Shown here piece by piece: positions 2,940-18,613 of a DNA stretch of 20,336 bases. A program made the translations under genes and the position numbers. The stretch covers positions 1 through 20,336 of the forward strand of contig CADCOF010000239.1 in NCBI GenBank assembly GCA_902802975.1, read 5' to 3'. Below the pieces are notes generated by a model. The model did no database searches. It saw only the letters and a program-made list of their open reading frames with translations, and was not told the origin of the DNA. Numbering within the stretch: position 1 is the first letter of the stretch; every line of letters begins with the position of its first letter. Origin of the DNA: an uncultured Ruminococcus sp. (GTDB lineage: Bacteria; Bacillota; Clostridia; Oscillospirales; Acutalibacteraceae).

Positions 2940-4163
2940 ATGGAAATTTTTAAGTCAAATAAAAACAACGCGGAAGTTTTTGATTACGAAAATTTTGATT
3001 ATGAAAAATGCCTCAGTGAGGTTTTGGAGTCTGTTAAGAAACCCAATATTATGATTTGTGGTTCTTCCGGCGTAGGCAAAAGCAGCTTGATCAATGATAT
3101 TTTCGGTACTCATGTGGCTGAAGTCGGAAATTCGGGAGTATCTACCACAAGAGGAATACACGAATACAAAGGTGAAACGATAAATCTGTTTGATACGGAA
3201 GGCTTTGAGATCGGCAGAGAAGAAGTTGCCGCACGTCATATTTTTAATCGTTTGAATAACAAGGAACAGATAGCAAGTAACGATTTTGAAAATCGAATTC
3301 ATGAAGTCTGGTATTGTATCAACGGTGGAAGTAAGCGTTTTCTTGATTTTGACAAAGAAGAGATTTGCAAGATCAGAGATAAGAACATCCCGGTGATGAT
3401 AGTTATCACTAAAATCGACACACTTTCAGAGGATGAACTCATTGCCCTGAAAAACGAGATTGCGTATGTTTTGCCGTCTATTCCAAGCATTTTTTCATAT
3501 TCAACCAATAGTCAGTTCGTTCAGGAACTTAAAGCTGCAGGTATATATAAAAAATTTGTCCAAAGAGATGAGATGGTAAAATGGGCTATCGATCATCTTG
3601 ACGAAGCACTGAGAGAGGGTTTCGTTCCGTCACTGCGTTCAAGTCTTGCAATAAGAAGAAACTATATTATATCAACAATAGTTAAAAAATACAGTACTAT
3701 GGCAGGCGCGGTTGTGATTGGAACATCGTTTATTAATGTTCCTTTCTCGGATTCTGTACCTTTGATGTCACTTCAGGTGAAAATGGCAATGTCAATTATA
3801 AATGCCTACGGCATAAAGTCGGACGTCTCGAAATTGGTTGGTAACTTGATAGGAACTACAGGTGTGTCGTATTTTGGAAGGACGCTTGCGTCTCAATTGA
3901 TTTCTGTTATTCCGTTCATTGGCAATACAGCTAAAGCGTCTGTTAATACCACTGTTGCTGTAACTATAACCGGAAGTCTCGGCGCAGCAATTACACTTGT
4001 TTGTGAACAGTATTTGAAAGCGTGTATAAAGAATAACGGAGCAAATAATTTGCCGTTTTCTGATTTTCTTACAGTTGAGAATCTCAAACGAGCAATTTCA
4101 TTCGTACAAAAAAACAAATCGGATTTTGGTATTTCAGATACAGACAAGAAACACAACGCTTAG
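2940..4163 (+). CDS. Era/TrmE-like P-loop GTPase with DUF697-like hydrophobic C-terminal domain
   Basis: This 407-aa protein has a full GTPase signature: G1 GSSGVGKS at 41-48, candidate G2 threonines at 69-70, G3 DTEG at 85-88 and G4 TKID at 157-160, so guanine specificity is expected. Residues from about 225 on are a weakly hydrophobic, Gly/Ala/Ile-rich helical region like the DUF697 (YcjF-type) domain, which suggests membrane association or oligomerisation. AGGAAGGA lies about ten bases before the ATG. The gene lies 28 bases after the lipoproteins and 10 bases before a second GTPase, and all look cotranscribed. Related GTPases occur in defence-like and membrane-remodelling contexts, but no specific role can be assigned here. 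Confidence 0.82.
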   Translation: MEIFKSNKNNAEVFDYENFDYEKCLSEVLESVKKPNIMICGSSGVGKSSLINDIFGTHVAEVGNSGVSTTRGIHEYKGETINLFDTEGFEIGREEVAARHIFNRLNNKEQIASNDFENRIHEVWYCINGGSKRFLDFDKEEICKIRDKNIPVMIVITKIDTLSEDELIALKNEIAYVLPSIPSIFSYSTNSQFVQELKAAGIYKKFVQRDEMVKWAIDHLDEALREGFVPSLRSSLAIRRNYIISTIVKKYSTMAGAVVIGTSFINVPFSDSVPLMSLQVKMAMSIINAYGIKSDVSKLVGNLIGTTGVSYFGRTLASQLISVIPFIGNTAKASVNTTVAVTITGSLGAAITLVCEQYLKACIKNNGANNLPFSDFLTVENLKRAISFVQKNKSDFGISDTDKKHNA

Positions 4164-4173
4164 GTGGGTATAT

Positions 4174-5391
4174 ATGAAGACGAATAACAACGTGCTAAAA
4201 ACATCAGTTCTCGTAATAGGTCAATCGGGTGTTGGAAAAAGTTCACTGCTTAATTACATTTTTAGTAGGGAAGTTGAGAAGACAGGTGTAGGTAAAGCTG
4301 TCACCAAAAAGGGTATCTTTCCTCATGATTTTAAATATGATGATGATTTTATTATTAAAATATATGATACATGGGGATTGGAACCTGAAAAAGATGCTGC
4401 TTGGAAAGATTTGGTTTTTGAAAATATAAGCGAAAATGATACGAAAGACATTAGCGAATGGCTTAATACAATTATCATATGTATAAGTGCGTCATCTGAT
4501 AGAATTCAGGAATTTGAAGTTAATATTATAGAAGACTTATTAAAAGACAAGCGAAATATCATTATAGCAATTACAAATTGTCAAAGTGAGCAAGATATAT
4601 CGGCGGAAAAGATCAGGAAACAGTTAATCGAGAAAACAGTGTTGGAAAATATGGACATCGTTTTTGTAAACAGCGTTTCCAAAAAGCTTATCGGCAGAAA
4701 AGAAGGCACTCCTACATTCGGCAGAGAGAAAATTGTCAGAGCAATTATAGGCAATATGTGGAAAACATTTAGAGCCAAAATCCCGGGTTATATTAATTCC
4801 AATATGGTTAGGCGGGAAACACAGTGGCTTACTGCAGAATTTAAGGTGATAGATAGCTTTAAGTTTCCTTTTATCAGAAAAAACACCAGAATTGATGAAT
4901 ATGTCCTTAATATAAATAATGATCTTGATGCTTATATTGACAGCGAAGTTGAAATGGTCAATGATGAATTCAGAAATGCAATAAATTATTACAGTAAACT
5001 TTCAAAAAAGTTTGTTGAAATATCTTTGATCAACTCCGGGTATTACAAATACGGGTCTGATTTCAATGTTGATATCAGAGAGATTTTTTCGGAGAAGGTA
5101 GACGCTACGCTTGAGAAATTATTTTCCAGCCGCAAAAAACTTATTGAACTGGCAAATCACGAAATACGCGACGGAAAAACTTTCAGAGATATTTTGAAGA
5201 CAATGGGTATAGAATTAGGTATGTATTTAAGAAATACCGTGTCATTAAAAAAGGATCTGAAAGAATCGACTCGCAGCACGATAAGAGAATTTAACGAAAG
5301 TATGTATGTTGAAATTCAAAATTTTGGAGTCTACATTGATCACCTTAATATCGAAAAAGTTTTTCTTGACCAGATAAGAAATTCGGTATAG
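4174..5391 (+). CDS. P-loop GTPase-like protein with altered G4 and a helical C-terminal region
   Basis: ATG 4174 (405 aa) is preceded by AGGTGGG with five-base spacing. The open frame extends upstream inside the previous gene, but that part is not supported. G1 GQSGVGKS occupies 16-23 and G3 DTWG 65-68. The position expected for G4, after the strand NIIIAI, reads TNCQ (134-137) instead of NKxD or TKxD, so guanine specificity is uncertain. Residues from about 200 to the end are largely charged, predicted helical sequence without membrane segments, unlike the DUF697-like tail of the preceding GTPase. The two adjacent GTPases may act as a pair, one canonical and one degenerate, as in septin or dynamin-like heteromers; that is inference. 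Confidence 0.78.
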   Translation: MKTNNNVLKTSVLVIGQSGVGKSSLLNYIFSREVEKTGVGKAVTKKGIFPHDFKYDDDFIIKIYDTWGLEPEKDAAWKDLVFENISENDTKDISEWLNTIIICISASSDRIQEFEVNIIEDLLKDKRNIIIAITNCQSEQDISAEKIRKQLIEKTVLENMDIVFVNSVSKKLIGRKEGTPTFGREKIVRAIIGNMWKTFRAKIPGYINSNMVRRETQWLTAEFKVIDSFKFPFIRKNTRIDEYVLNINNDLDAYIDSEVEMVNDEFRNAINYYSKLSKKFVEISLINSGYYKYGSDFNVDIREIFSEKVDATLEKLFSSRKKLIELANHEIRDGKTFRDILKTMGIELGMYLRNTVSLKKDLKESTRSTIREFNESMYVEIQNFGVYIDHLNIEKVFLDQIRNSV

Positions 5392-5615: not shown

Positions 5616-5647
5616 AAAGTCCGGAGATATTGACAGCTCCGGACTTT
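5616..5647 (+). terminator. Hairpin terminator after the GTPase block
   Basis: A perfect 11-pair stem (5616-5626 with 5637-5647) encloses a ten-base loop. It is preceded by A residues and followed by a short AATTT rather than a long T run. The A-rich 5' side and T-rich 3' side could also let it work on the opposite strand. It separates the GTPase genes from the RNA-repair operon. Confidence 0.7.
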
Positions 5648-5770: not shown

Positions 5771-6487
5771 ATGGAATCCTATTCTGATTTCTTGTATAGA
5801 ATCAGCTACCAGCAGCCCGAACTGCAGATCGGCGAAGGACGTTTTACTGCGGATAATCGTGTGCTTGAAAAAGTATCTCACGATAATTCTTTTAGCAGCT
5901 TTTACGGCGATACAGTTGTGTTCGATCTGAAAGACAAAGCCAAGAAGAAAATATCGGCGCAAATTGACACGCTTTATGAAGAGGTTCCTATGTGTTTTGC
6001 ACAAAGGCTCGATTCTTCCACACTTCACATGACGCTGCACGATCTGAGTGCGTCAAGCGATTTAGACAGCGTCTCGTCTGATGTGTTCAACAACGAAGTT
6101 AAGCTTTTGCGGGTACTGTCGGAGAATCATATTGCATGCGAAACTATTGATATGAGAATGAACTACATTGTCAATATGGTGAACACAAGTCTTGTAATGG
6201 CTCTTGTTCCCGAAAATGAAAATGAATGGAATAAGCTTCAAAAGCTTTACACGCTTATTGATGAGGTTCGCGTTTGTCCGTATCCGTACCTTACTCCGCA
6301 TATAACGTTGGCATATTTTAATCGCAGCGGATTTGATATGGAGTCAGCCGCTGCACTTAAAACCGTAGTAAGAGAGCTTAACAGCAAGAGTATTAAGATT
6401 CATCTACACACAGATCATCTTGTATATCAAAAATTTCTCAGTATGGATAACTATATTGACGTGTTCAGGCTGGCGAAAAAATTGTGA
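5771..6487 (+). CDS. 2H phosphoesterase-superfamily protein (LigT/CPDase-like)
   Basis: The 238-aa product has two HxT motifs in the expected hydrophobic setting: LHMTL with His86 and Thr88, and PHITL with His177 and Thr179. They are about 90 residues apart, which defines the 2H superfamily. Known members cleave or ligate 2',5' bonds, hydrolyse 2',3'-cyclic phosphates or act on ADP-ribose 1'',2''-cyclic phosphate. The first 45 residues are an extra N-terminal segment not needed for the fold. AAGGGA lies nine bases before the ATG. It is the first gene of an operon containing an RNA ligase and an RNA end-healing enzyme, so RNA-end processing is the likely role; the exact substrate cannot be read from sequence. 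Confidence 0.78.
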   Translation: MESYSDFLYRISYQQPELQIGEGRFTADNRVLEKVSHDNSFSSFYGDTVVFDLKDKAKKKISAQIDTLYEEVPMCFAQRLDSSTLHMTLHDLSASSDLDSVSSDVFNNEVKLLRVLSENHIACETIDMRMNYIVNMVNTSLVMALVPENENEWNKLQKLYTLIDEVRVCPYPYLTPHITLAYFNRSGFDMESAAALKTVVRELNSKSIKIHLHTDHLVYQKFLSMDNYIDVFRLAKKL

Positions 6488-6499
6488 GGAGGATGCTAT

Positions 6500-7108
6500 A
6501 TGTTTGACCCCGGAAAAATGTACACATATATTCGTGGTTTTGCTACAGGTGCGGGAATGCAGGACACACGAAGGGCACTGGCGTTTGCGCGCAAAAAGCA
6601 TGACGGACAATTGCGAAAGAGCGGTGAGGCTTATATTATACATCCGCTTACAATGGCTTGCAACGCGCTCAGTATAGGCATTAAGGATGACAATGTTATA
6701 GCAACGATACTTTTGCATGACGTGTGCGAGGATTGTGACGTTGGACTGCAGGAGCTGCCTGTGTCTGATTCTGTGAAACACAGCGTAAGCTTGATGACAT
6801 TTTCCATAATGCATGGAGAGACAAAAGAGGTTGCCAAAAATCGTTATTACAATATGATACTGCAGGATAGAGCGGCAACTCTCACAAAGCTTATTGACCG
6901 CTGTCACAATGTTTCCAGTATGGCAGGCACATTTTCCGAGGAAAAGCTGACTGCGTATATCGAAGAAACAAGAAAGTATGTACTGCCGCTGATAAAGGAA
7001 GCAAAGCTTCAGTATCCTGAGGATTTTGATGTTCTTTTTGCTCTTAAATATCATATCACAAGCGTAGTGGATTCTATTGAGGCAACTATGCAGGTTTATC
7101 GTAATTGA
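6500..7108 (+). CDS. RelA/SpoT-type HD phosphohydrolase (MESH1-like, stand-alone)
   Basis: This 202-aa protein carries the metal-binding HD pattern of (p)ppGpp hydrolases: His34 in ARKKHDG, His48 in the YIIHPL motif, His73-Asp74 and Glu77-Asp78 in LLHDVCED, and Asp133 in IDRCHN. No synthetase, TGS or ACT domain follows, so it is a single-domain hydrolase of the small alarmone hydrolase/MESH1 type. Known members remove the 3'-pyrophosphate of ppGpp or the 2'-phosphate of NADPH. It starts 12 bases after the phosphoesterase stop, with GAGGAGG seven bases upstream. Given its neighbours, the substrate may instead be another nucleotide or an RNA end. Confidence 0.8.
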   Translation: MFDPGKMYTYIRGFATGAGMQDTRRALAFARKKHDGQLRKSGEAYIIHPLTMACNALSIGIKDDNVIATILLHDVCEDCDVGLQELPVSDSVKHSVSLMTFSIMHGETKEVAKNRYYNMILQDRAATLTKLIDRCHNVSSMAGTFSEEKLTAYIEETRKYVLPLIKEAKLQYPEDFDVLFALKYHITSVVDSIEATMQVYRN

Positions 7109-7124
7109 CGGGAGGGATTTGAAT

Positions 7125-7614
7125 ATGTCCGAAAATTTGAAACATAGCGACGTTGAGATCATCAGCGGAGATTTTGTTATCAGGACGCGTAAAGATTCAA
7201 CGTTTTATTCATTGAAACTGAATAATAAGAGATGCTCATTGACGTTCGATCATGCATACACGATCGATTGTGGTTCTAATTCTAAAAGTATCAGGGATTG
7301 TACTTATAGAGTAAACGGGCGTACTTTTATATCTGACATTTAAAGAAGGAAAAACGCTTACAGAATTTTATAAGCACAGCCAGCTCAGACAACATGCTGA
7401 CGGAACCAGATTTTTGTACTTTTACAATGACATTCCTACTTTTGATTCTGATGACCGTGTTTGGGACGGAAATGAGTATATTGCTATTTACTCAGATAAA
7501 GGGGTAATTAATCTGATTAGCTGCCGCTGCGGTTATCAAATTCCCGATATAAGGGTGTATATCAATCTGAAAAATTTTGACGCCGCTTTTTCCGAGTGGA
7601 TTACCAGGCTGTAA
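7125..7614 (+). pseudogene. Unknown protein split by a +1 frameshift
   Basis: A good ribosome site (GGGAGGG) precedes ATG 7125. The first frame runs 72 codons and stops at 7341-7343. The next frame is open from 7315 to the stop at 7614 and continues as YLTFKEGKTL, ending AFSEWITRL. Together they would make about 160 residues. The second part has no start codon with a ribosome site, so one extra base between about 7315 and 7343, in or near the TTTTATAT tract, is the simplest explanation. The product is not recognised: it is a mixed alpha/beta, non-membrane sequence. Alternatives are a sequencing error or a programmed +1 shift at ATT TAA. The operon spacing on both sides is intact. Confidence 0.6.
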
Positions 7615-7628
7615 TCGGAGTATGATGT

Positions 7629-8333
7629 ATGAACTATGATCATTTTGCTGCGGCATATGTCAGAGGTCAGATAATGAAATTCGGCGATACAATGAGTTTA
7701 GACAGTATTACAAATCGATGTATTACTTGTCCTATTGATGAATTGACCGATGATGAGCTTGTGCTGCTTGCTGAAATCGGTAGAAATAATGATCTGAAGA
7801 TGTATCGTTTCAAGGAAAAAGAGTCTATTCCACGAGTGAAAAAAGTAATAGGTTTTCTGAAAGCATTTTATCCCGAAAGTTTGCTTGATGTGGGCAGCGG
7901 CAGAGGTGCGTTTCTTTTTCCTTTTATGAGAGAGCTGCCATATGTTCCTGTGACGTCAATAGATATATTGCCTCATCGAGTTGATTTTTTGAAAACAATT
8001 GGCATGGGCGGAATACAAACATTAACTGCGATACAGGAAGATATATGTACTTGGCATATTCCAAGCGGCAGTTATGACGTTGTAACAATGCTTGAGGTTC
8101 TGGAGCATATTCCTGATGCTGAAAAAGCTGCGGCGAATGCTTACAGGATAGCGAAACGTTTTTTGGTGGTGTCCGTTCCGTCAAAGCCCGATAATAATCC
8201 CGAGCATATTCATCTTTTCACAAAAGATAAGCTTACATCTATGTTCAATTCAGTGGGCGCGGAAAAAATCAGTTTTGACGGAGTTAACGGACATCTAATT
8301 GCAATTATTTCTAAAGGTGCAGAAAATGAGTGA
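7629..8333 (+). CDS. Class I SAM-dependent methyltransferase
   Basis: The 234-aa protein has motif I LLDVGSGRG at 85-93, an acidic motif II residue at Asp112 (SIDIL), and EVLEHIPD at 156-163 as the motif IV region. About 80 residues precede the Rossmann fold. Most relatives with EVLEHIPD are small-molecule or general methyltransferases of the Methyltransf_11/23 type. However, Glu156, Glu159 and His160 with a later histidine pair (193, 195) also recall the metal-binding ExxEH...H of Hen1 RNA 2'-O-methyltransferases. CGGAG lies eight bases before the ATG, and the 3' end overlaps the RNA ligase start by eight bases, implying translational coupling. An RNA or RNA-end substrate is plausible but not shown. 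Confidence 0.8.
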   Translation: MNYDHFAAAYVRGQIMKFGDTMSLDSITNRCITCPIDELTDDELVLLAEIGRNNDLKMYRFKEKESIPRVKKVIGFLKAFYPESLLDVGSGRGAFLFPFMRELPYVPVTSIDILPHRVDFLKTIGMGGIQTLTAIQEDICTWHIPSGSYDVVTMLEVLEHIPDAEKAAANAYRIAKRFLVVSVPSKPDNNPEHIHLFTKDKLTSMFNSVGAEKISFDGVNGHLIAIISKGAENE

Positions 8334-9102
8334 AACAAAGCTAATAAAATATCCCCGTACACCGCATATTGAAGGTTCCAGACTTCAGCCGGGTGATGAA
8401 GATCTGTCGCAAGTGCCATTTAAGCAGATAAGGGGCAGATATATTGTTGTGGAAGAAAAGGTTGATGGTGCAAACACGGCAATTTCATTTGGCGATAACG
8501 GCGAACTTCTGCTGCAAAGCAGGGGACATTATTTAACGGGCGGATATCGTGAAAGACATTATAATTTGTTAAAACAATGGGCTAATATTTATAGAGAGAC
8601 GCTTCATGATGTATTGGGAAGTCGTTACATAATGTATGGCGAGTGGCTGTATGCCAAGCATACCGTGTACTATGACGCCCTTCCTGATTATTTTATGGAG
8701 TTTGATATTCTCGACAGGACTAACGGCAAATTTCTTGATACTGTTTCAAGGCGGCATATCACACAAAACTTGCCTATAATATGTTCGGTGCCCGTTTTGT
8801 GGAGCGGTATAGCAACGAGTAAAGAGAAGATTATGAAAAATCTTGGAAGATCGCACTATATCACTGACAAACACCTCGATAATCTCAGAAACGAATGCCT
8901 CAAGATTGGCTTGGATCCGGAACGTGTGGTCAAAGAAACCGATAATTCAAATTTAATGGAAGGTTTGTATATTAAGGCAGAGGAAAACGGCGAGGTGACC
9001 GATAGAATAAAATTTGTACGGGCGTCTTTTTTGCAAACGGTAGATTCCTCGCCAACTCACTGGCTGGATAGACCTATTGTGCCGAACAAATTATCAATCT
9101 GA
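8326..9102 (+). CDS. ATP-dependent RNA ligase (Rnl2-like, RNA_ligase family)
   Basis: I chose ATG 8326 (258 aa) because it has a ribosome-like AAAGGTG at 8312-8318 and starts just before the methyltransferase stop. The nucleotidyltransferase motifs are in order: motif I EKVDG with nucleophile Lys45, Arg66 in the LQSRGH strand, GEW at 105-107, motif IIIa FMEFDI at 123-128, motif IV EGLYIK at 212-217 and motif V IKFVR with Lys229. The enzyme adenylates itself with ATP, transfers AMP to a 5'-phosphate end and seals it to a 3'-OH. It is compact and lacks a large C-terminal domain. The next gene supplies both end-healing steps the ligase needs, the classic pairing described for HD-Pnk. Confidence 0.9.
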   Translation: MSETKLIKYPRTPHIEGSRLQPGDEDLSQVPFKQIRGRYIVVEEKVDGANTAISFGDNGELLLQSRGHYLTGGYRERHYNLLKQWANIYRETLHDVLGSRYIMYGEWLYAKHTVYYDALPDYFMEFDILDRTNGKFLDTVSRRHITQNLPIICSVPVLWSGIATSKEKIMKNLGRSHYITDKHLDNLRNECLKIGLDPERVVKETDNSNLMEGLYIKAEENGEVTDRIKFVRASFLQTVDSSPTHWLDRPIVPNKLSI

Positions 9103-9118
9103 GGTCGATTATTAGATT

Positions 9119-10297
9119 ATGAATGTTATGAATGGATATGACAAACTGGCAGAAATCGTACCTATTGCGCCTGATTATGTGATAGATTGGAAGAAAATAG
9201 AATTCTCTCTCATGTCGCCTTTTTACGAAAAAATGAAAAAAACACAGCAAAATCCGGAATTTCACGCGGAGGGTGATGTGTGGAAACACACAAAAATGGT
9301 GTGTGAATGCCTCGTTAATGATTCAGAATTCAGATCGTTGCAGCGGCGACAGCAGCAGGAGCTGTTCTTAGCGTCGGTATTGCACGACGTGGGAAAGATT
9401 TATACAACAAAACTTGAAAACGGGAGCTGGACGTCTCCGTATCATTCGATCAGAGGAGCAAATGTTGTCAGAGATTTGCTTTGGCGAGAGTATGGTTTAT
9501 GTGGAACACATGAGTTTCAGGTTTTTCGTGAGACGATATGCTTGCTTGTACGTTATCATATGACGCCGTCTCATATATTAGAATCTGAGCGCAGCGAACA
9601 AAAACTTATTAAAATTGCGTCAAATGGAGAATTAATACCCGATTTTGATTTGAATATGCTGCTGATTCTTTCTGCAGCGGACAATAATGGCAGGTTGTTT
9701 GCAGGAAAGAAACAAAGAGAAGAAGATATTTTGCTTGTCAGAGAGCTTGCAGATGAACTGGAATATTTAAATGCCCCCAGGAAATTTTCGGATTCGTTTA
9801 CCGAATTCGCATATTTATCAGGCAAACAGAAATATCCGGATTCACAGCTTTTTAATGATACCGAGTTTGAAGCTGTGATAATATGCGGATTGCCTGGTAC
9901 CGGAAAGGATACCTTCATACAAAACAATTATCCTGATTATTTTGTGGTTTCACTTGATGATATACGATCTGAGTTTGGAATATCGCCACTTGGAAACCAA
10001 AAAGAAGTTGTTCGCATTGCAAACGAAAGGGCTGCAAAGCTTATGAGAAAAAAGCAGTCTTTTGTTTGGAATGCTACATCTGTAACGCCGGATATTCGCA
10101 GAAGAGTTGTATCTTTGGTGACAGATTATCACGGCTATGTAAAAATATTTTTTCTTGAAACCGATTTTGAAGAAAATTTAAAGAGAAACAAAAGCAGATC
10201 CAAAGCAGTGCCTCAGTCTGTTATAGAAAAAATGCTTGAAAGGCTTGTTCTTCCGGAGCGGTTTGAGGCGCATGATGTTGAATGGATTTGTTTGTAG
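9119..10297 (+). CDS. HD-Pnk: bifunctional 2',3'-phosphoesterase and 5'-OH polynucleotide kinase
   Basis: The 392-aa protein joins two end-healing modules. The N-terminal HD domain has His57 (VWKHT), His89-Asp90 (VLHDVGK), His109, and Asp188 (SAADNNGR). The C-terminal kinase has P-loop GLPGTGKDT at 257-265 and a SLDDIR motif shortly after, as in T4 Pnk-type kinases. The same architecture in Runella slithyformis HD-Pnk removes 2',3'-cyclic and 3'-phosphates and phosphorylates 5'-OH ends; homologues are often encoded beside an ATP-dependent ligase, as here. ATG 9119 follows GAGGT with rather long spacing (13 bases); Met at 9128 is an in-frame alternative. Product ends would be direct substrates for the adjacent RNA ligase. 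Confidence 0.88.
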   Translation: MNVMNGYDKLAEIVPIAPDYVIDWKKIEFSLMSPFYEKMKKTQQNPEFHAEGDVWKHTKMVCECLVNDSEFRSLQRRQQQELFLASVLHDVGKIYTTKLENGSWTSPYHSIRGANVVRDLLWREYGLCGTHEFQVFRETICLLVRYHMTPSHILESERSEQKLIKIASNGELIPDFDLNMLLILSAADNNGRLFAGKKQREEDILLVRELADELEYLNAPRKFSDSFTEFAYLSGKQKYPDSQLFNDTEFEAVIICGLPGTGKDTFIQNNYPDYFVVSLDDIRSEFGISPLGNQKEVVRIANERAAKLMRKKQSFVWNATSVTPDIRRRVVSLVTDYHGYVKIFFLETDFEENLKRNKSRSKAVPQSVIEKMLERLVLPERFEAHDVEWICL

Positions 10298-10331
10298 AAT
10301 ATAAGTATAAAGTGAAAGGAAGATAATAATT

Positions 10332-10973
10332 ATGGCTACAAGACCTGCATGGGCATATCACAGAGGATATGTTGTAAAAGGTGATTTCGATTTTGATTGG
10401 AACGGTGGTTTTGCCGCTTCACAAAAACAAAAGAATATTGCTGCTCTTCATGACGAAATAATGAAAAGATACGGCGAAACAGCACTTGAAATATCAACAA
10501 AGTCGCTTGTTGATATGGGTCGTTCGCTCAGTGCGTTTAATCTGAAGTTGGACGGCGTGCTGCTTGAGTGTGTTTTTCAGTCGAGCAAGGTGTTTGAAAA
10601 CGGCGGTCCATACCGTGATTTGCTCGAAGTATCTCCGAAAGAGGCGAAGAGGGATGAAAGATTAAAAAGCTCCGGAAAGCTTGTTGCATTTGATTATGAT
10701 TCAAAAAGATGGGAATTGGAACCGAAAACGGCATTCTACGATTATATTTACGTAAAAAGCGCGCTTGGTACGTTTTCTGTCGAACAGCTCAAAGAAACAC
10801 TCAATCAGTATGTGTGGTTTACGGATATTGAATTCAATCCGAAAAAGTCAATCAACTCTCAGGCAAGATCAGTTGCTCTTTTAAAGGCCATTATTCTTAC
10901 TGATTCACAATCTGTTCTTGATACTTATGAAGATTGGATAGCCTATCACAAAAAAATAGTTGGTAAGTCGTAG
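10332..10973 (+). CDS. NADAR-family protein (DarT1-associated NADAR antitoxin type), without a visible DarT partner
   Basis: The 213-aa sequence resembles what I know of the DarT1-associated NADAR antitoxin family. It has a MATRPAW start, a GGFAASQKQKNI segment, STKSLVDMGRSLSAFNLKLD, an FQSSKVFENGGPYRDLLE core, EAKRDERLKSSG, and a late WFTDIEFNPKKSINSQAR block. NADAR enzymes remove ADP-ribose from guanosine, reversing DarT1-type DNA modification. The length is normal and it looks intact. AAAGGAAG lies about nine bases before the ATG. No ADP-ribosyltransferase is encoded next to it, which is unusual if it is an antitoxin. Its place after RNA ligase and HD-Pnk suggests it acts as a repair enzyme for modified nucleic acid. 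The family call is from remembered similarity and is not verified. Confidence 0.72.
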   Translation: MATRPAWAYHRGYVVKGDFDFDWNGGFAASQKQKNIAALHDEIMKRYGETALEISTKSLVDMGRSLSAFNLKLDGVLLECVFQSSKVFENGGPYRDLLEVSPKEAKRDERLKSSGKLVAFDYDSKRWELEPKTAFYDYIYVKSALGTFSVEQLKETLNQYVWFTDIEFNPKKSINSQARSVALLKAIILTDSQSVLDTYEDWIAYHKKIVGKS

Positions 10974-10989
10974 AGGAGGAATAGACAAC

Positions 10990-12468
10990 ATGAGACAATA
11001 TTATGAGGAGAGCGGATTGTCAAGCAAATCGGAATTTATCGAAGATTTGCAATATCAAAGCTTAACAGAAAATTACGAGCATTCCGGTGTGCCTTTGATA
11101 TATGACAACGGAAGTGTTTATACTGATATTTCCGATTCACATACCCTGATTTTTGGAAATACAGGTTCAAAAAAGACGCGGAATTTCTGTATTCCTACGG
11201 TATATACCATAGGTATGGGCGGAGAATCTATGGTAATATCAGATCCCAAGGGTGAGATATATCGTAATACATCCGGTTTTTTAAAGGAACGTGGCTATTC
11301 AATAAAGGTATTCAATCTTCGCAGTCCCGAACATGGGTCAAAGTGGAATCCGCTTATGCTTCCGTATAAATATTACAAAAATGGCGATCAGGATAAAGCC
11401 ATAGAAATGATTTCTGATTTTTGTATGCAGCTAAAAAATCAGGTTCATTCAAGTGTGGACCTTTACTGGGAAAACCAAGCTATGGATTTGCTTATGGGTT
11501 TGATACTTATACTTTTTGAGGTGGAACCTAACGAGAAAAAAATACATATGGAAAGCGTTCAGCGTATTCGTATGTATATAGGAACACAATCGAGTTCGTC
11601 TGATGATACAAATAATATATTCTGGAAGATGCTGGAAACTTTTCCGGAACGTTCTCTTATTCGTATGAAGTTGGCTTCCGTGTATAATTTAAGAGGTGTC
11701 GAGAAAACACTTAATTGTGTTATAAGCACATTTGATACTATGATACGTTCTTTCCTTCTCAACAAAAAGCTTATGAATATGACGGACTCAAGCGAGTTTG
11801 AATTTGACTCAATAGCAAAGGAAAAAACAGTACTTTATCTGATAACGCCCGATGAAAAAACAACATTCCATTTTCTTGTCAGTGTATTTGTTAAGCAGTG
11901 TTATGAGGTGTTTATTGATTATGCTCATAAATGCAAGAATGGGCTGCTGCCGATAAGGGTAAATTATATCCTGGACGAATTCTCTAATTTCCCACAGATT
12001 GCCGATATGTCCGCTATGATATCGGCAGCGCGCAGCAGAAATATTCGTTTTCTTCTTGTGGTTCAGAGTAAACAGCAGCTTATTTCGGGATATGGCGATG
12101 CAGCGGAAACAATCAAGTCGAACTGCAGAACATGGATATATTTAACATGCAGAGAGTTAAGTTTGCTTCAGGAGATTTCGGAGTTGTGTGGAACTATTGA
12201 GGTGAACGACAGGGAACGCCCGGTGCTTAGTACTACGCAGCTTCAGTGCTTAAAAGTGGGTTGGGAGGATAGTCAGGCGTTGATACTGCGCAGCAGAATA
12301 CGTCCATATCTCTCATGGATAAAGGATTTTTCTGTTTACCCTCAGTCAAAGTATCCGCCTGTTCCGTTTGAAGAGCATGAATTAAAGAATTCATCGTGTT
12401 TTTCTGTTCCCAAATATATGTATAAAGTTTTAAGAGATGAACTGGAATTGGATAATAGCAAGAGGTGA
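10990..12468 (+). CDS. Stand-alone VirD4/TraG-like coupling-protein ATPase, soluble, with altered Walker A
   Basis: ATG 10990 (492 aa) follows AGGAGG. The fold pattern is that of TraG/VirD4 motors: P-loop at 56-63 reading GNTGSKKT, an ISDPKGE block soon after, Walker B YILDEFSNFP around Asp329-Glu330, then AARSRNIRFLLVVQSKQQL and a late CRTWIYL strand. The usual Gly before the Walker A lysine is replaced by Lys. The N-terminal membrane segments of true coupling proteins are absent, and no relaxase or mating-pore gene is present. The protein is therefore probably a cytosolic DNA or protein motor recruited to another system. It starts 16 bases after the NADAR gene and is followed almost immediately by a small partner gene. 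Confidence 0.8.
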   Translation: MRQYYEESGLSSKSEFIEDLQYQSLTENYEHSGVPLIYDNGSVYTDISDSHTLIFGNTGSKKTRNFCIPTVYTIGMGGESMVISDPKGEIYRNTSGFLKERGYSIKVFNLRSPEHGSKWNPLMLPYKYYKNGDQDKAIEMISDFCMQLKNQVHSSVDLYWENQAMDLLMGLILILFEVEPNEKKIHMESVQRIRMYIGTQSSSSDDTNNIFWKMLETFPERSLIRMKLASVYNLRGVEKTLNCVISTFDTMIRSFLLNKKLMNMTDSSEFEFDSIAKEKTVLYLITPDEKTTFHFLVSVFVKQCYEVFIDYAHKCKNGLLPIRVNYILDEFSNFPQIADMSAMISAARSRNIRFLLVVQSKQQLISGYGDAAETIKSNCRTWIYLTCRELSLLQEISELCGTIEVNDRERPVLSTTQLQCLKVGWEDSQALILRSRIRPYLSWIKDFSVYPQSKYPPVPFEEHELKNSSCFSVPKYMYKVLRDELELDNSKR

Positions 12469-12473
12469 GGATA

Positions 12474-13322
12474 GTGTTTCAAAAAGTAAAGGACGAGCTT
12501 GTTAGTGCCTCGGAAAAATTGAATATCGAAAAAGTGTTTGAGCTTGCGCCAATATATTTATTGCCGCAAAATGAGGATTGCAGCGATAATATACAGTATT
12601 CGTTGGAACAGCTTCTGTCTGAGTTGGACAGTAAGGGTATTGTATCAGAAAAAGACGGAGCTTGTATCAGATTAAGTGCGGAAAAGGGAAGTATTGATAT
12701 TATTAATTCTGCCGGCTTTGGATTGTATGATGATTACGGAAAATTTAAAAAAACATTGGATCAATGGCTGCAGGATATTGGCTTGAAGTATCATTTTTAT
12801 CAGGGAATTGTGTTGCTGTCAGTTAAAAAAATCAAGGATTTGATTTTGGAAGATGTTTGGTGCGAACAGCTTTTCAGACATATCAAGTATTACAAAAACC
12901 ATTTTTTGTTTATTGTTTCATTTGACGAGAAAGAAATAAAAGATGCGGAGTCTTTGATGGGGAAGAGTTTCTTCTGTGAAACTATTATGCCAACAAAGAA
13001 AACAGAAAAAGATTATAATGAACATATCACATCGCTGCTTGAACAATATGACACAAAGCTGAGTGAAGATGCTGCAATTTGTTTGACTGAAATTCTGAAG
13101 AAGTATTATTCTGATATTAACTATAAGATTATTGATCTGTGGATTAAGCAGATCCTATGGAATATGCTAAAGAATAGTGGCAGCGACATGACGCTGAATG
13201 AAATTGATCTGTCTGAGACTATGCTTGCAGAAATAGTCAAAAGCAGCAAATCGGAAACAACAGGTTTTTCAATAGGCTTTATAACATCGGAAAATAAGGC
13301 ATTTTTTACACATTATTCTTGA
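12474..13322 (+). CDS. Unknown protein, possibly a degenerate AAA+ ATPase-like partner of the VirD4-like protein
   Basis: GTG 12474 (282 aa) is preferred because AGAGGTGAGG lies just upstream; GTG 12465 overlaps the previous stop and lacks such a site. I do not recognise the family. No Walker A is seen. The middle has a strand-rich FLFIVSFDEKEI segment, then a GKSFFCETIMPTKK block and a helical KLSEDAAICLTEIL region. Their order recalls sensor 1, a FxxxI strand and the lid of SpoVK/CbbX-type AAA+ domains. The start and end are soluble mixed alpha/beta sequence. Being five bases after the VirD4-like gene, it is very likely translated with it. It is the last gene of the operon. Confidence 0.6.
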   Translation: MFQKVKDELVSASEKLNIEKVFELAPIYLLPQNEDCSDNIQYSLEQLLSELDSKGIVSEKDGACIRLSAEKGSIDIINSAGFGLYDDYGKFKKTLDQWLQDIGLKYHFYQGIVLLSVKKIKDLILEDVWCEQLFRHIKYYKNHFLFIVSFDEKEIKDAESLMGKSFFCETIMPTKKTEKDYNEHITSLLEQYDTKLSEDAAICLTEILKKYYSDINYKIIDLWIKQILWNMLKNSGSDMTLNEIDLSETMLAEIVKSSKSETTGFSIGFITSENKAFFTHYS

Positions 13323-14671: not shown

Positions 14672-16195
14672 ATGAATGTTGGTATAGATCTTGGTACAAC
14701 AAATACAGTTGTTAGTTATCTTAATGAATTTGATGAGTGGAGAACTCTTTCATTTTCGAAAGGCCGATCGGAGAATCCTTCAATGCTTCCCTCGTGCCTT
14801 TGTGTTGTCAACAGTAACGAGATTAAAGTTGGTCAGGATGCACTTGATGAACGTCTTGTAAATGCAAATAATTTTTTATGTGATACTAAGTATCATATGG
14901 GTGATGAAAAAACCGTATTTAGCAGAGGCGGAATTACTTTTACTGCGAGATTGGCAGCAGAAAAAGTTCTTGAAGAGGTCATGGGCGAATTAAAGCGTCA
15001 ATTTCCTGAAGAAGAAACATTTAATGCATTTGTTACTGTTCCTGCCAGATTTCTCGAGGCTGCCAGGCGTGAAACAAGAGAAGCATTGATTAAAGCCGGT
15101 TTTGAAGATAACGGAGACCGCAGATCGCTTACCGATGAACCAATTGCCGCAGCAGTAGCGTATAGTTCAGCTCTTTCAACCGCGTCAAATGTTTTGGTCG
15201 TGGATTATGGCGGAGGAACATTTGATTTGTCGCTTGTTACCACAAACACTGTCGGTATTGCAAGCGGTATGCAGAATTTGAGCGTAAAGAGCTGGGGCGG
15301 AGACCTGCATTTAGGCGGAAATGATGTTGATCGACTTTTGATCAACAAAATGGTGGAACAATTTGTTAAAAATGGAGGCAGGTCTTTCGATCCGTTTTCA
15401 ACATTTAACAATTCCGATGAACAAAGAGCTGCTGCATTGATCTGTGCTCAGCCTATTGAAATAAAAAAACAGCTGTTTGAAGATTTTACTTCTGAGGCTT
15501 CTGTTCTTGTTCCCGATCTTTTAGATGGCGTTGATCTTGAGTTTTATATTACTCCGCAGGAATATGAAGATATGATGACAGATATTTCTGTGAAATATCA
15601 AGATTGTATAAACAAAATGTTTATACAATCTAAGGAAGTCGATATATCGTCTGTGGATACGGTACTTATCGTTGGCGGTATGGCGCATGAACCATGTCTG
15701 CGCAAGGTTTTGGTTTCTTTATTTCATGATGAGAGTAAGTTGGTTATTCCTGATGATTCTATGTACTTGGTGTCTAAGGGAGCGTCCATTTGGAATAGTA
15801 ATGCTGATGTTCACGTTGAAAATAAAGTTTACACTTCAATAGGAATCCTTCTCAATGGAGGAAAAGATGTGTGTCAGGTTGTTAAAGAAGGCGATTTGAT
15901 CGATGATGCCGGTAAATTGTTCTCGGGCAATTTCAGGTTGACCAACTCTATGTCAAGTAATTTTCTGTTGAGCATTGTTGAGTATCAGGGGGAATTTTCT
16001 CCTGGTAATTATACCATTCTAAAAAGCGAACGGGTTCCGGTTGGAAAACCTAGAAGAACCGTTTTTTCATTTCACAATTCCCCCACTGTAGATGTCAAAA
16101 TAGAAATAAAGATGGACGCTGATAAGTTATTCTGTATCACAGTAAAGCAAAATGGTATACCGGATAGGTTGATTGATCTGAGACTGGGAAACTAA
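14672..16195 (+). CDS. Hsp70-family ATPase, short form without the helical lid
   Basis: This 507-aa protein has the Hsp70/actin ATPase motifs: phosphate 1 GIDLGTTNT from residue 4, VTVPARF, a TDEPIAAAVAY connect-like block, phosphate 2 VVDYGGGTFD at 176-185, and the adenosine motif VLIVGGM at 331-337. Residues after about 385 form a beta-rich segment like the substrate-binding beta domain, but the alpha-helical lid of DnaK (about 638 aa) is missing. The nucleotide-binding residues look intact, so ATP binding and hydrolysis are expected. AGAGG lies seven bases before the ATG. No DnaJ or GrpE is nearby, so it is not the housekeeping chaperone. It probably works with the divergent Hsp70-like protein encoded next. 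Confidence 0.88.
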   Translation: MNVGIDLGTTNTVVSYLNEFDEWRTLSFSKGRSENPSMLPSCLCVVNSNEIKVGQDALDERLVNANNFLCDTKYHMGDEKTVFSRGGITFTARLAAEKVLEEVMGELKRQFPEEETFNAFVTVPARFLEAARRETREALIKAGFEDNGDRRSLTDEPIAAAVAYSSALSTASNVLVVDYGGGTFDLSLVTTNTVGIASGMQNLSVKSWGGDLHLGGNDVDRLLINKMVEQFVKNGGRSFDPFSTFNNSDEQRAAALICAQPIEIKKQLFEDFTSEASVLVPDLLDGVDLEFYITPQEYEDMMTDISVKYQDCINKMFIQSKEVDISSVDTVLIVGGMAHEPCLRKVLVSLFHDESKLVIPDDSMYLVSKGASIWNSNADVHVENKVYTSIGILLNGGKDVCQVVKEGDLIDDAGKLFSGNFRLTNSMSSNFLLSIVEYQGEFSPGNYTILKSERVPVGKPRRTVFSFHNSPTVDVKIEIKMDADKLFCITVKQNGIPDRLIDLRLGN

Positions 16196-16207
16196 AGACA
16201 TGTGGGT

Positions 16208-16229
16208 AATGGGTTAATGATTTCCCATT
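16208..16229 (+). other. Small inverted repeat between the two Hsp70-like genes
   Basis: AATGGG at 16208-16213 pairs with CCCATT at 16224-16229 across a ten-base loop, within a 90-base gap. There is no following T run, so it is not a clear terminator. It may be an operator or an mRNA hairpin, or may be chance. Confidence 0.2.
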
Positions 16230-16285
16230 GTATGGAAAATGAGTATTAATTTGATTATTTGTAATTATAAGAGGAGGGCCTTTCT

Positions 16286-18613
16286 ATGAATTTATCTCAG
16301 TGGATATCAGATAACTCTCCTTTGGACAAACGTCCCGAAAATTATGATTTGATTGTTGATGATATCTTGGCTCAATTGTTGGGATTTATTTGTTCACACA
16401 ACGATGAAGCAGATACAAAAGGTCATATGTCAACTGCAGATGACAGCCTTATGCAGCTTTTGTTTGTTTCACAAAAGACAAAAAATCAACTTCGAATTAA
16501 CCCTGATATGATTGAAGTCGCTGAAGCCGATTCCGGGTTTGTGGATTTGGTGTGTTCCGGCAGTGCAACAGGTGTGTTTTCAGATGAACTTTGTCAAAGT
16601 GGATTATTGTGCAATGACGAAGAATGTGATAATGTTCTTGCTGCCGGCATTATTTATGAACAACTGAAATTTGGTGAACCGTTTGATTATCAAGGTAAGG
16701 TTGATTGGCGCAACGGAGGTTCACTGTTGAATAAAATGATAGTTACCGATCCCAATGAGCGTATATCAGCAAAGGATGCTCTTCAGATTCTTGCGTCTGA
16801 AAATGATGGTCGTGTGATTATTAATTTTACTGAATTTGAAAGCGGAGCTGTAGTGAAGTCTGATGAGATTATTTACAATTCATCGGATTTTATTTTGCAT
16901 TTGCCAACCAATATTACGTCTGAATCTTCGATTAAGACTTTTTATGTGACAGATAATAAAGATAGGAAAATATATTATCGAGCAGCACCGATAATAGAAT
17001 GTGTGTATTGTACTGCACTGAAAAGACCGGATGTTAATAAGATTGAATATTCCAATTCTATGAAAAAGATTATTGTGGGAATAGATATTGGATTTAAAAA
17101 AATAAACGCTTCGATAATTGATAATAACGGTCAAATATATGATGTATTTAATTCGAATATTGCTGCCAATAAAATTTCGTATCCGATTTGTATAGCGTCG
17201 GATAACGGTGGTGTGTTGTTCTTAGGTTCAGAGGCTGAAACAAGAATACGCAAAGATTTGGCGAAACCTGTTTTGATACATAGCTGCGATCCGGCAAATA
17301 AGATAGAGATTGTTAAAGGCATTTATGAATCATATGATTCACTATTACAAAAGCTTTTTGCGGATTTTAAGGCCGAACTGATAAGTCGTATTAACGTAGA
17401 TTACACATGTCTGGAGTTTTATTATATATTACCTGCCGAATTTTCCGATGCAAAAAAAATTGCCTATCGTTCAGCTTTAAAAGCCATTGGCTTTGGTGAG
17501 AACGAAGTTGACGGATTTTGTTCCGTTTATTGTTGGCTTAGAAAGCGTGGTATATTACGGGATAATTCTGTTTCTTTTATAATAGACGGCGGCGAAGGCG
17601 CTGTTCGTATCGGAGTTGTGAAGTCCGATGCAAATAGTGCTGTCAGAACGTTGTATAAGAATTGTTGTTCAGGCGGATATGAGATGACTCAAAAGCTTAT
17701 TTCAGCCGAAGAAGCTAAGATAAAAAAATTTGATGTTCCCGATTACGAAGACTACGCATCAAACAAGGTTATTTTAGCAAAGAATATAGAAGAGGTGAAG
17801 AAGTCTCTCACTTATTCAAAAAGAGTAAGAAGGTCTGTGAAACTCCAAAGTAACGGAGAAGAGAAAACAGTAGTTTTACTTCATGACCGAAGATTGTTAA
17901 ATGAATATATTTCCGGTGTCAAAAGCGCGCTGAATAAGTGCTTGGATAGTTGTTCGGGATTTAACATAACAGATGTGATTCTTTTGGGAGGTCTTTCTGT
18001 TATGCCAGAATTGATCGATTATGTAAATGACTGTGCGAAAAGATGTAATAGTAAATTTCATTTGTTGGATTATTCAGAAGTTTTTGCAAGAGGTGCAGCT
18101 ATTTACGGAAGTATACAAGTTCCGATTCAAGTGAAAAATCAAGCGGAAAATTCTGTTGACGATGTTCCTGTTGAGAAGATCAATAATAAGACAACACGAG
18201 AAATTGGTATACAGATTCAAGATCCACTCAGAAATACAATAACGTTTCAAACAAAAGTACCTATTGGAACGCAGTACAACGATGACGGCAATGTGAATTT
18301 TGAATATGACTATACTGTTACAGTTGATGAATTGCGCAATAGAAAATGTTCTCTGAAAGTTTATACCAGAGAACCCGGGATGTCTCATATTACAAGTACA
18401 TTGGTGGATTCAGATAAAGCGATCAGGGCTTTGGGTATGCTGCAAATAACAATTCCCGAAAAGTTCAAGCTTGCTAAAGATCATCTTGTTGTAACATTAT
18501 ACATTGATAGAAATGAACTGGTTACAGCAAAGGTTATATGGAAGTATAAGTATATTGGGTTTGTAGCGATCGAAAAGAGTGTTACAGATTTCAAGTTTAT
18601 TACCCCCAGATAG
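16286..18613 (+). CDS. Pseudokinase C-lobe fused to a divergent Hsp70-like ATPase domain
   Basis: The 775-aa protein starts at ATG 16286 after GAGGAGGG. Residues about 20-170 follow the C-lobe of a Ser/Thr kinase. INPDMIEVAEADSGFVDLV stands where the catalytic loop and DFG would be, AAGIIYEQLKFGEPF matches the SxGxxxYxLxxGxxPF helix, and LLNKMIVTDPNERISAKDAL matches the final kinase helix. The HRD Asp, the DFG and the N-lobe are missing, so it cannot be an active kinase. Residues 263-640 are Hsp70-like: VGIDIG (264-269), IIDGGEG (432-438) and VILLGG (564-569). Phosphate 1 has lost its Thr-Thr and phosphate 2 its third Gly. A beta-rich tail of about 135 residues completes it. It probably acts as a regulatory or scaffold partner of the neighbouring Hsp70. 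Confidence 0.75.
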   Translation: MNLSQWISDNSPLDKRPENYDLIVDDILAQLLGFICSHNDEADTKGHMSTADDSLMQLLFVSQKTKNQLRINPDMIEVAEADSGFVDLVCSGSATGVFSDELCQSGLLCNDEECDNVLAAGIIYEQLKFGEPFDYQGKVDWRNGGSLLNKMIVTDPNERISAKDALQILASENDGRVIINFTEFESGAVVKSDEIIYNSSDFILHLPTNITSESSIKTFYVTDNKDRKIYYRAAPIIECVYCTALKRPDVNKIEYSNSMKKIIVGIDIGFKKINASIIDNNGQIYDVFNSNIAANKISYPICIASDNGGVLFLGSEAETRIRKDLAKPVLIHSCDPANKIEIVKGIYESYDSLLQKLFADFKAELISRINVDYTCLEFYYILPAEFSDAKKIAYRSALKAIGFGENEVDGFCSVYCWLRKRGILRDNSVSFIIDGGEGAVRIGVVKSDANSAVRTLYKNCCSGGYEMTQKLISAEEAKIKKFDVPDYEDYASNKVILAKNIEEVKKSLTYSKRVRRSVKLQSNGEEKTVVLLHDRRLLNEYISGVKSALNKCLDSCSGFNITDVILLGGLSVMPELIDYVNDCAKRCNSKFHLLDYSEVFARGAAIYGSIQVPIQVKNQAENSVDDVPVEKINNKTTREIGIQIQDPLRNTITFQTKVPIGTQYNDDGNVNFEYDYTVTVDELRNRKCSLKVYTREPGMSHITSTLVDSDKAIRALGMLQITIPEKFKLAKDHLVVTLYIDRNELVTAKVIWKYKYIGFVAIEKSVTDFKFITPR

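Follow-up and report, generated by a model that had tools for sequence, protein, structure and literature searches.

A probable modular RNA-damage-reversal operon in an uncultured Ruminococcus sp., and the association of its methyltransferase, RNA ligase and HD-Pnk core with varied ADP-ribose-removing enzymes

Results

We analyzed a stretch of 20,336 nucleotides from an uncultured Ruminococcus sp. of the Acutalibacteraceae (hereafter the window), which is the whole of contig C239 (CADCOF010000239.1) in a genome of 1.98 Mb, 333 contigs and 84% completeness. Seven closely spaced genes occupy positions 5771-10973 on the + strand, in the order 2H phosphoesterase, RSH-like HD hydrolase (RSH-HD), orphan gene, methyltransferase, RNA ligase, HD-Pnk and NADAR. 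The intergenic gaps are 12, 16, 14, 16 and 34 nt, and the methyltransferase and ligase genes overlap by 8 nt, which bears out the coordinates, spacings of 12-34 nt and single overlap given in an initial annotation of this DNA. The families named in that annotation were also recovered, with two corrections: the orphan gene is split over two frames, and the same-strand run continues beyond NADAR into a VirD4-like gene. Profile searches matched the ligase, HD-Pnk, NADAR, HD and methyltransferase proteins as expected, whereas the 2H protein fell below its Pfam cut-off with its motifs kept.

The ligase and HD-Pnk are predicted to provide the sealing and end-healing chemistry of the locus. The ATP-dependent RNA ligase (8326-9102) matches RNA_ligase (PF09414; E 7.3e-33); its start at ATG 8326 is backed by the N-termini of relatives, of which a protein search returned 7666, and K45, D47 and G48 of the nucleotidyl-lysine motif K45-x-D-G are invariant in 81 aligned rows. 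HD-Pnk (9119-10297) joins an N-terminal HD phosphoesterase (HD, E 3.9e-5) to a C-terminal P-loop polynucleotide kinase (AAA_33, E 1.2e-18). Both domains lie in one chain with their motifs kept, and the ligase gene adjoins across a 16-nt gap, as in a cassette of HD-Pnk and RNA ligase. The residues H49, H57, H89-D90, H109, H147 and D188 and the P-loop residues G260, G262, K263 and D264 are invariant in 80 rows, so the P-loop closes with GKD instead of GKS/T in every one of them. A Pnkp architecture (kinase, metallophosphatase, ligase) was considered for this protein and rejected, as bacter_Pnkp scored 33.1 bits against a cut-off of 750 and matched the kinase part only. The 2H protein (5771-6487), a predicted 2',3'-cyclic phosphodiesterase, reached 22.2 bits with PF13563 (E 1.6e-4; cut-off 27). 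The His and Thr of its two H-x-T motifs, H86-M-T88 and H177-I-T179, are invariant in 8 aligned rows, and a relative at another locus (L061; such loci are given L numbers) scored 23.1 bits with LigT_PEase, whose cut-off is 23.3.

The RSH/MESH1-like protein (6500-7108; 202 aa) consists of the hydrolase domain alone. It matches HD_4 (E 5.8e-9), spoT_relA (E 3.8e-20) and, in phmmer searches, RSH and MESH1 structures. With just the HD part of that model covered (positions 1-143 of 687), its spoT_relA score of 71.8 bits stays far below the cut-off of 499; a full RelA/SpoT enzyme was rejected, as the synthetase and regulatory domains are absent. Relatives in L006, L026, L059 and L114 share 66-74% identity, and H48, H73-D74, E77-D78 and D133, which we take to be the RSH active site, are invariant in 8 rows. 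The class I S-adenosylmethionine (SAM) methyltransferase (7629-8333; 234 aa; Methyltransf_23, E 1.1e-14) carries a HEN1-like metal-ligand pattern: E156-x-x-E159-H160 and H193/H195 are invariant in 34 aligned rows, the last metal ligand being H193 or H195, and E-x-x-E-H plus H is the motif described for HEN1 (PMC10781085). Its profile matches the Hen1 chains 3jwi/3jwg (E 3e-7), and its structure model has a predicted local distance difference test (pLDDT) score of 94. Assignment as a full bacterial Hen1 (TIGR04074) was rejected at 13.5 bits against a cut-off of 340.

The two pieces of the orphan gene (7125-7614), read in different frames at 7125-7344 and ~7315-7614, align with adjoining parts of the same relatives and represent one family. 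Nineteen relatives were found, most of about 163 aa, and one or both pieces are also matched in L026, L064, L066 and L071. A frameshift or an error in the assembly would account for the split. The model of the L064 relative is beta-rich (pLDDT 90.8), and fold comparison of this model gave no convincing match.

The methyltransferase-ligase-HD-Pnk triad is conserved across phyla. A ligase alignment of 22 rows served to search a set in which each species has a single genome, and the locus counts below refer to the best 80 of at least 517 confirmed ligase relatives, which come from Bacillota, Bacteroidota, Planctomycetota and one genome labelled Chloroflexota. Within 6 kb of the ligase, HD-Pnk is present at all 80 loci and the methyltransferase at 66/80, in agreement with the proposal of an HD-Pnk and ligase core in a conserved neighbourhood. 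In 6 of the 14 loci that lack the methyltransferase, the ligase is less than 1 kb from the end of the available DNA. The order methyltransferase-ligase-HD-Pnk was kept at gene-sized spacing (methyltransferase start no more than 1.5 kb upstream and HD-Pnk no more than 2 kb downstream of the ligase) in 60/80 loci. Four more distant plasmid regions pair the ligase with HD-Pnk and have no methyltransferase match; among 16 viral loci, two (L085, L087) have a clear HD-Pnk after the ligase, and most of the rest have weak HD-Pnk matches close to it. Few genomes in the family of the window's host carry the ligase (2/250, own included), and the other genome, G031, encodes ligase, HD-Pnk and RSH-HD consecutively (L114).

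The genes around the triad vary. Partners were counted within 6 kb on the ligase strand with custom profiles, sample members being checked against Pfam. The 80 loci contain ARG (PF03747) in 16, a YbiA-type NADAR/macro gene in 11, BspA-type leucine-rich repeat (LRR) proteins in 11, calcineurin-like proteins in 10, 2H in 9, RSH-HD in 6 and vWA in 6. Conservation of gene order holds for the triad but not for 2H and RSH-HD, which come and go and change places: L006 reads ligase-HD-Pnk-RSH-2H-ARG, L061 reads RSH-2H-methyltransferase-NADAR-ligase-HD-Pnk, and L064 reads methyltransferase-ligase-HD-Pnk-RSH-ARG-NADAR/macro-orphan. The full seven-gene set was found in this window only. Several partners are composite. 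L047 (4118-16577), from a Prevotella metagenome-assembled genome, assembles within ~12 kb ARG, methyltransferase, ligase, HD-Pnk, RtcB, a KptA-NADAR(gp30.3)-NT5C fusion, a further ARG and an RSH-like gene. L046 and, in Lachnoclostridium sp. An131/An138, L054 and L067 have ARG (PF03747) and NADAR (PF08719) matches within single open reading frames (ORFs). Between the methyltransferase and ligase of L061, an 808-aa protein (7441-9864) contains LRR, gp30.3-type NADAR, cytidylyltransferase-like and YbiA-type NADAR domains.

The triad is repeatedly and closely associated, on the same strand, with de-ADP-ribosylation enzymes of different folds. An ARG or YbiA-type NADAR/macro gene (often macro-fused) occurs within 6 kb in 25/80 loci (0.76 Mb searched), whereas ~0.3 loci would be expected by chance. 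The expectation was based on 44 rows for PF08719 and 78 for PF03747 (the pieces of split matches counting separately) from 51 genomes totalling 148.8 Mb, namely the window's own, those of the 25 positive loci and 25 chosen others; this choice of genomes biases the background rate upward, and the expectation is therefore conservative. In 60 family genomes taken without selection (122 Mb), PF03747 had 36 matches. The density of ARG and NADAR drops with distance (per Mb, for consecutive bins of 2 kb: 78, 44, 14, 0 and 12), and in 21/25 positive loci the remover lies within a run of + strand ORFs with gaps below 250 nt. The labelled ORF contains the PF03747 or PF08719 match in 24/25 loci; in L044 the match spans two ORFs with a stop between them. 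The ADP-ribose label takes 19 changes on a tree built from 82 ligase rows, of which at least 14 are forced by starred branches. The tie to ADP-ribosylation drawn in the initial annotation is upheld by these functional equivalents and not by the NADAR family of the window itself.

The ADP-ribose enzymes might instead act on small by-products or signals, such as the ADP-ribose cyclic phosphate made by KptA or cyclic ADP-ribose, and not on modified RNA. The KptA-NADAR-nucleotidase fusion and RtcB beside the triad in L047 would fit this explanation, as would the report that KptA-made ADP-ribose cyclic phosphate is a substrate of 2H enzymes (PMC9503650). However, the window's genome (84% complete) gave no KptA match, and KptA occurs in 7/25 genomes with an ADP-ribose partner versus 8/25 without. 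Since these frequencies are alike, KptA does not account for the ADP-ribose partners, and we regard a small-molecule role as improbable.

The NADAR of the window (10332-10973) belongs to the DarT1-associated (BC4488) subfamily and is a predicted guanine-ADP-ribose hydrolase. It matches NADAR-DarT1 (PF22397) with E 3.3e-69, and the sole solved structure related to it by sequence is the Geobacter lovleyi NADAR 8bat (E 4.9e-40). Residues E79 and D165 are invariant in 118 rows; we infer that D165 corresponds to the BC4488-subfamily aspartate, D171 of the E. coli C7 NADAR (PMC11543638). Its neighbours are HD-Pnk and the VirD4-like gene, not DarT1, and a single YbiA-type NADAR lies on a different contig of the genome. 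A search for DarT (PF14487) gave no match in 12 genomes, namely the window's own (84% complete), 10 others with the window-type NADAR and one with the ligase, so that 11 carry the NADAR. It is therefore unlikely that this NADAR is half of a toxin-antitoxin pair; a divergent DarT1 beyond the reach of the model, or a DarT1 in the missing 16% of the genome, is possible.

Beyond NADAR, the same-strand run continues after 16 nt with a VirD4-like gene of the CD1115 family (ATG 10990; NCBIfam 281 bits, cut-off 250). This gene and a following 285-aa gene (together 10990-13322) also form a pair in L130, at 66% and 31% identity, where the repair island is absent. Such a setting raises the question of whether the operon travels with a mobile element and helps it withstand host defences that cleave RNA, with counter-defence rather than host protection as its benefit. 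The adjoining VirD4-like gene, the recurrence of the pair in another genome and the rarity of the ligase in the family would agree with this; against it, no relaxase or integrase had a Pfam match among the window genes scanned (short ORFs were outside the scan), and we consider counter-defence quite unlikely. On the upstream side, a terminator-like 9-bp hairpin with a T-rich tail was seen by eye at 5618-5645 (+ strand), in the interval that separates the 2H gene from the GTPase gene upstream; our terminator scan, which allowed loops of up to 8 nt, did not list this hairpin, whose loop measures 10 nt. Promoter-like sites are near chance (20 versus 16.9 in shuffled sequences), and terminator-like sites number 7 versus 3.5. 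A single transcript for the genes at 5771-10973 is plausible. Elsewhere, the window contains two related proteins with PASTA repeats and an NAD-glycohydrolase-translocation (F5/8 type C) domain (259-1494 and 1796-2911), followed by two GTPase genes (2940-5391), and two Hsp70-like genes (14672-18613), of which the second has an N-terminal part that by eye, with no profile support, resembles the end of a protein-kinase domain.

Discussion

NADARs and other ADP-ribosylhydrolases in RNA-repair contexts are already in print (PMC9503650, PMC11833690). Guanosine-ADP-ribose on RNA is reported to be removed by NADARs, including the E. coli C7 NADAR, and ADP-ribose at phosphate ends by ARH-like and macrodomain enzymes (PMC11833690), while one Pseudomonas regulon contains a NADAR together with a homologue of RtcB (PMC11888443). 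Host systems built around ARG, in which alarmone-type HD, calcineurin-like phosphatase, vWA, macro and NADAR components take part, have been predicted to counter viral ADP-ribosylation, and these partners, described in section 3.8 of PMC9503650, recur around the triad in relatives of the window. Unlike those systems, the window's genome (84% complete) gave 0 matches to ARG, and that section names no RNA ligase or HD-Pnk. DarTG1 (DarT1-NADAR) has a NADAR of the same Pfam family as the window's, but DarT was not found here. The Pnkp-Hen1 and Pnkp1-Rnl-Hen1 systems resemble the window in combining kinase, phosphatase, ligase and a SAM methyltransferase with ExxEH plus His; in the window, by contrast, the 3'-end phosphatase is an HD domain, and the methyltransferase and HD-Pnk score far below the Hen1 and Pnkp model cut-offs. 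Our literature search, with partial coverage, found no account of this triad beside ARG or NADAR in members of the Clostridia and Bacteroidota.

A close precedent in gene content is the putative Deinococcus radiodurans operon DRB0100-DRB0099-DRB0098, which likewise encodes an RNA/DNA-ligase-type protein, HD-Pnk and an ADP-ribosylhydrolase (PMC11833690, PMC1997131). As published descriptions of it go, its remover is a macrodomain-type PARG, and methyltransferase, 2H and RSH-HD are lacking. Among the matches listed (18 Deinococcus records), three Deinococcus plasmid HD-Pnks are 25.6-27.9% identical to that of the window, and in the one Deinococcus region viewed, KNUC1210, the ligase adjoins HD-Pnk with no PARG annotated. 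The D. radiodurans operon is irradiation-induced and was first proposed to serve DNA repair, and its kinase acts on DNA (PMC1997131); DNA is also the reported target of DarT1-type NADARs (PMC11543638). These parallels would suit a DNA repair function for the window's set, yet the Deinococcus ligase, alone or with its two operon partners, sealed no DNA according to the same account (PMC1997131), and the 2H and KptA partners are RNA-end enzymes. We hold DNA repair to be highly improbable.

On balance, we lean towards the locus being a modular, probably laterally acquired RNA-damage-reversal operon that would mend breaks, take off ADP-ribose and perhaps methylate RNA ends as Hen1 does. RNA cut by a ribotoxin or anticodon nuclease would bear 2',3'-cyclic phosphate and 5'-OH termini; clearing of the 3' end would fall to the HD domain of HD-Pnk, with the 2H protein as a second route, and the kinase domain would phosphorylate the 5' end. 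The methyltransferase may then 2'-O-methylate the healed 3' end in a Hen1-like manner before the ligase seals the RNA. NADAR would strip ADP-ribose from guanines, on RNA first and perhaps on DNA, where ADP-ribosyltransferase toxins or phage enzymes would be the source of the modification, and RSH-HD may clear a nucleotide by-product or alarmone.

A number of observations weigh against this reading. The remover is absent within 6 kb on the ligase strand from 55/80 loci, some of them cut by contig ends, and several removers are broken (L044, by the stop) or themselves cut at contig ends (L015, L052, L065, L072). The expectation of ~0.3 loci comes from genome-wide densities, and part of the excess may reflect a general gathering of such genes in accessory islands. 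Shuffled labels take 22.3 changes on the ligase tree against the 19 observed, and 25 of 500 shuffles were as low, so that the label is slightly less scattered than by chance; it appears to recur widely with mild clustering, some associations being inherited, and gains are indistinguishable from losses. To our knowledge, ExxEH motifs also occur outside Hen1, and the modelled methyltransferase fold seems as near to many small-molecule enzymes as to Hen1. Additionally, the orphan gene at 7125-7614 is disrupted in the window. The NADAR family of the window occurs in 0/80 triad loci and accompanies the triad only here, and its relatives elsewhere in the class stand in other contexts, such as beside phage-like genes in L107 as judged from its ORFs.

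This last point would be explained if the NADAR were an orphan DarT1 antitoxin or a stand-alone defence gene inserted next to an ordinary RNA-repair cassette, the adjacency being accidental. Its membership of a DarT1-associated family agrees with such an origin, and so does rarity: window-type NADARs occur in 8/250 family genomes (one of these matches being weak and partial) and 4/391 class genomes, own included in both, and the ligase is scarcer still in the family. Yet NADAR shares the strand of HD-Pnk and follows it after 34 nt, DarT was found in none of the 12 genomes searched, and functional equivalents stand beside the triad in 25/80 loci. Accidental adjacency is in our assessment unlikely, and the RNA-damage-reversal operon is the reading we retain.

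More broadly, and tentatively, many bacteria may possess one modular repair operon that reverses strand breaks together with ADP-ribosylation, two injuries of unrelated chemistry, and marks the mended junction by methylation, the remover (ARG, macro, YbiA NADAR or DarT1-type NADAR) being swapped to suit local toxins or phages. That toxins and phage-defence enzymes ADP-ribosylate RNA was discovered only recently, and a recurrent gene set coupling the removal of ADP-ribose to break repair offers concrete candidates: a NADAR without a toxin, a fused KptA-NADAR-nucleotidase, fused ARG-NADAR proteins and what may be an HD-based counterpart of Pnkp1-Rnl-Hen1.

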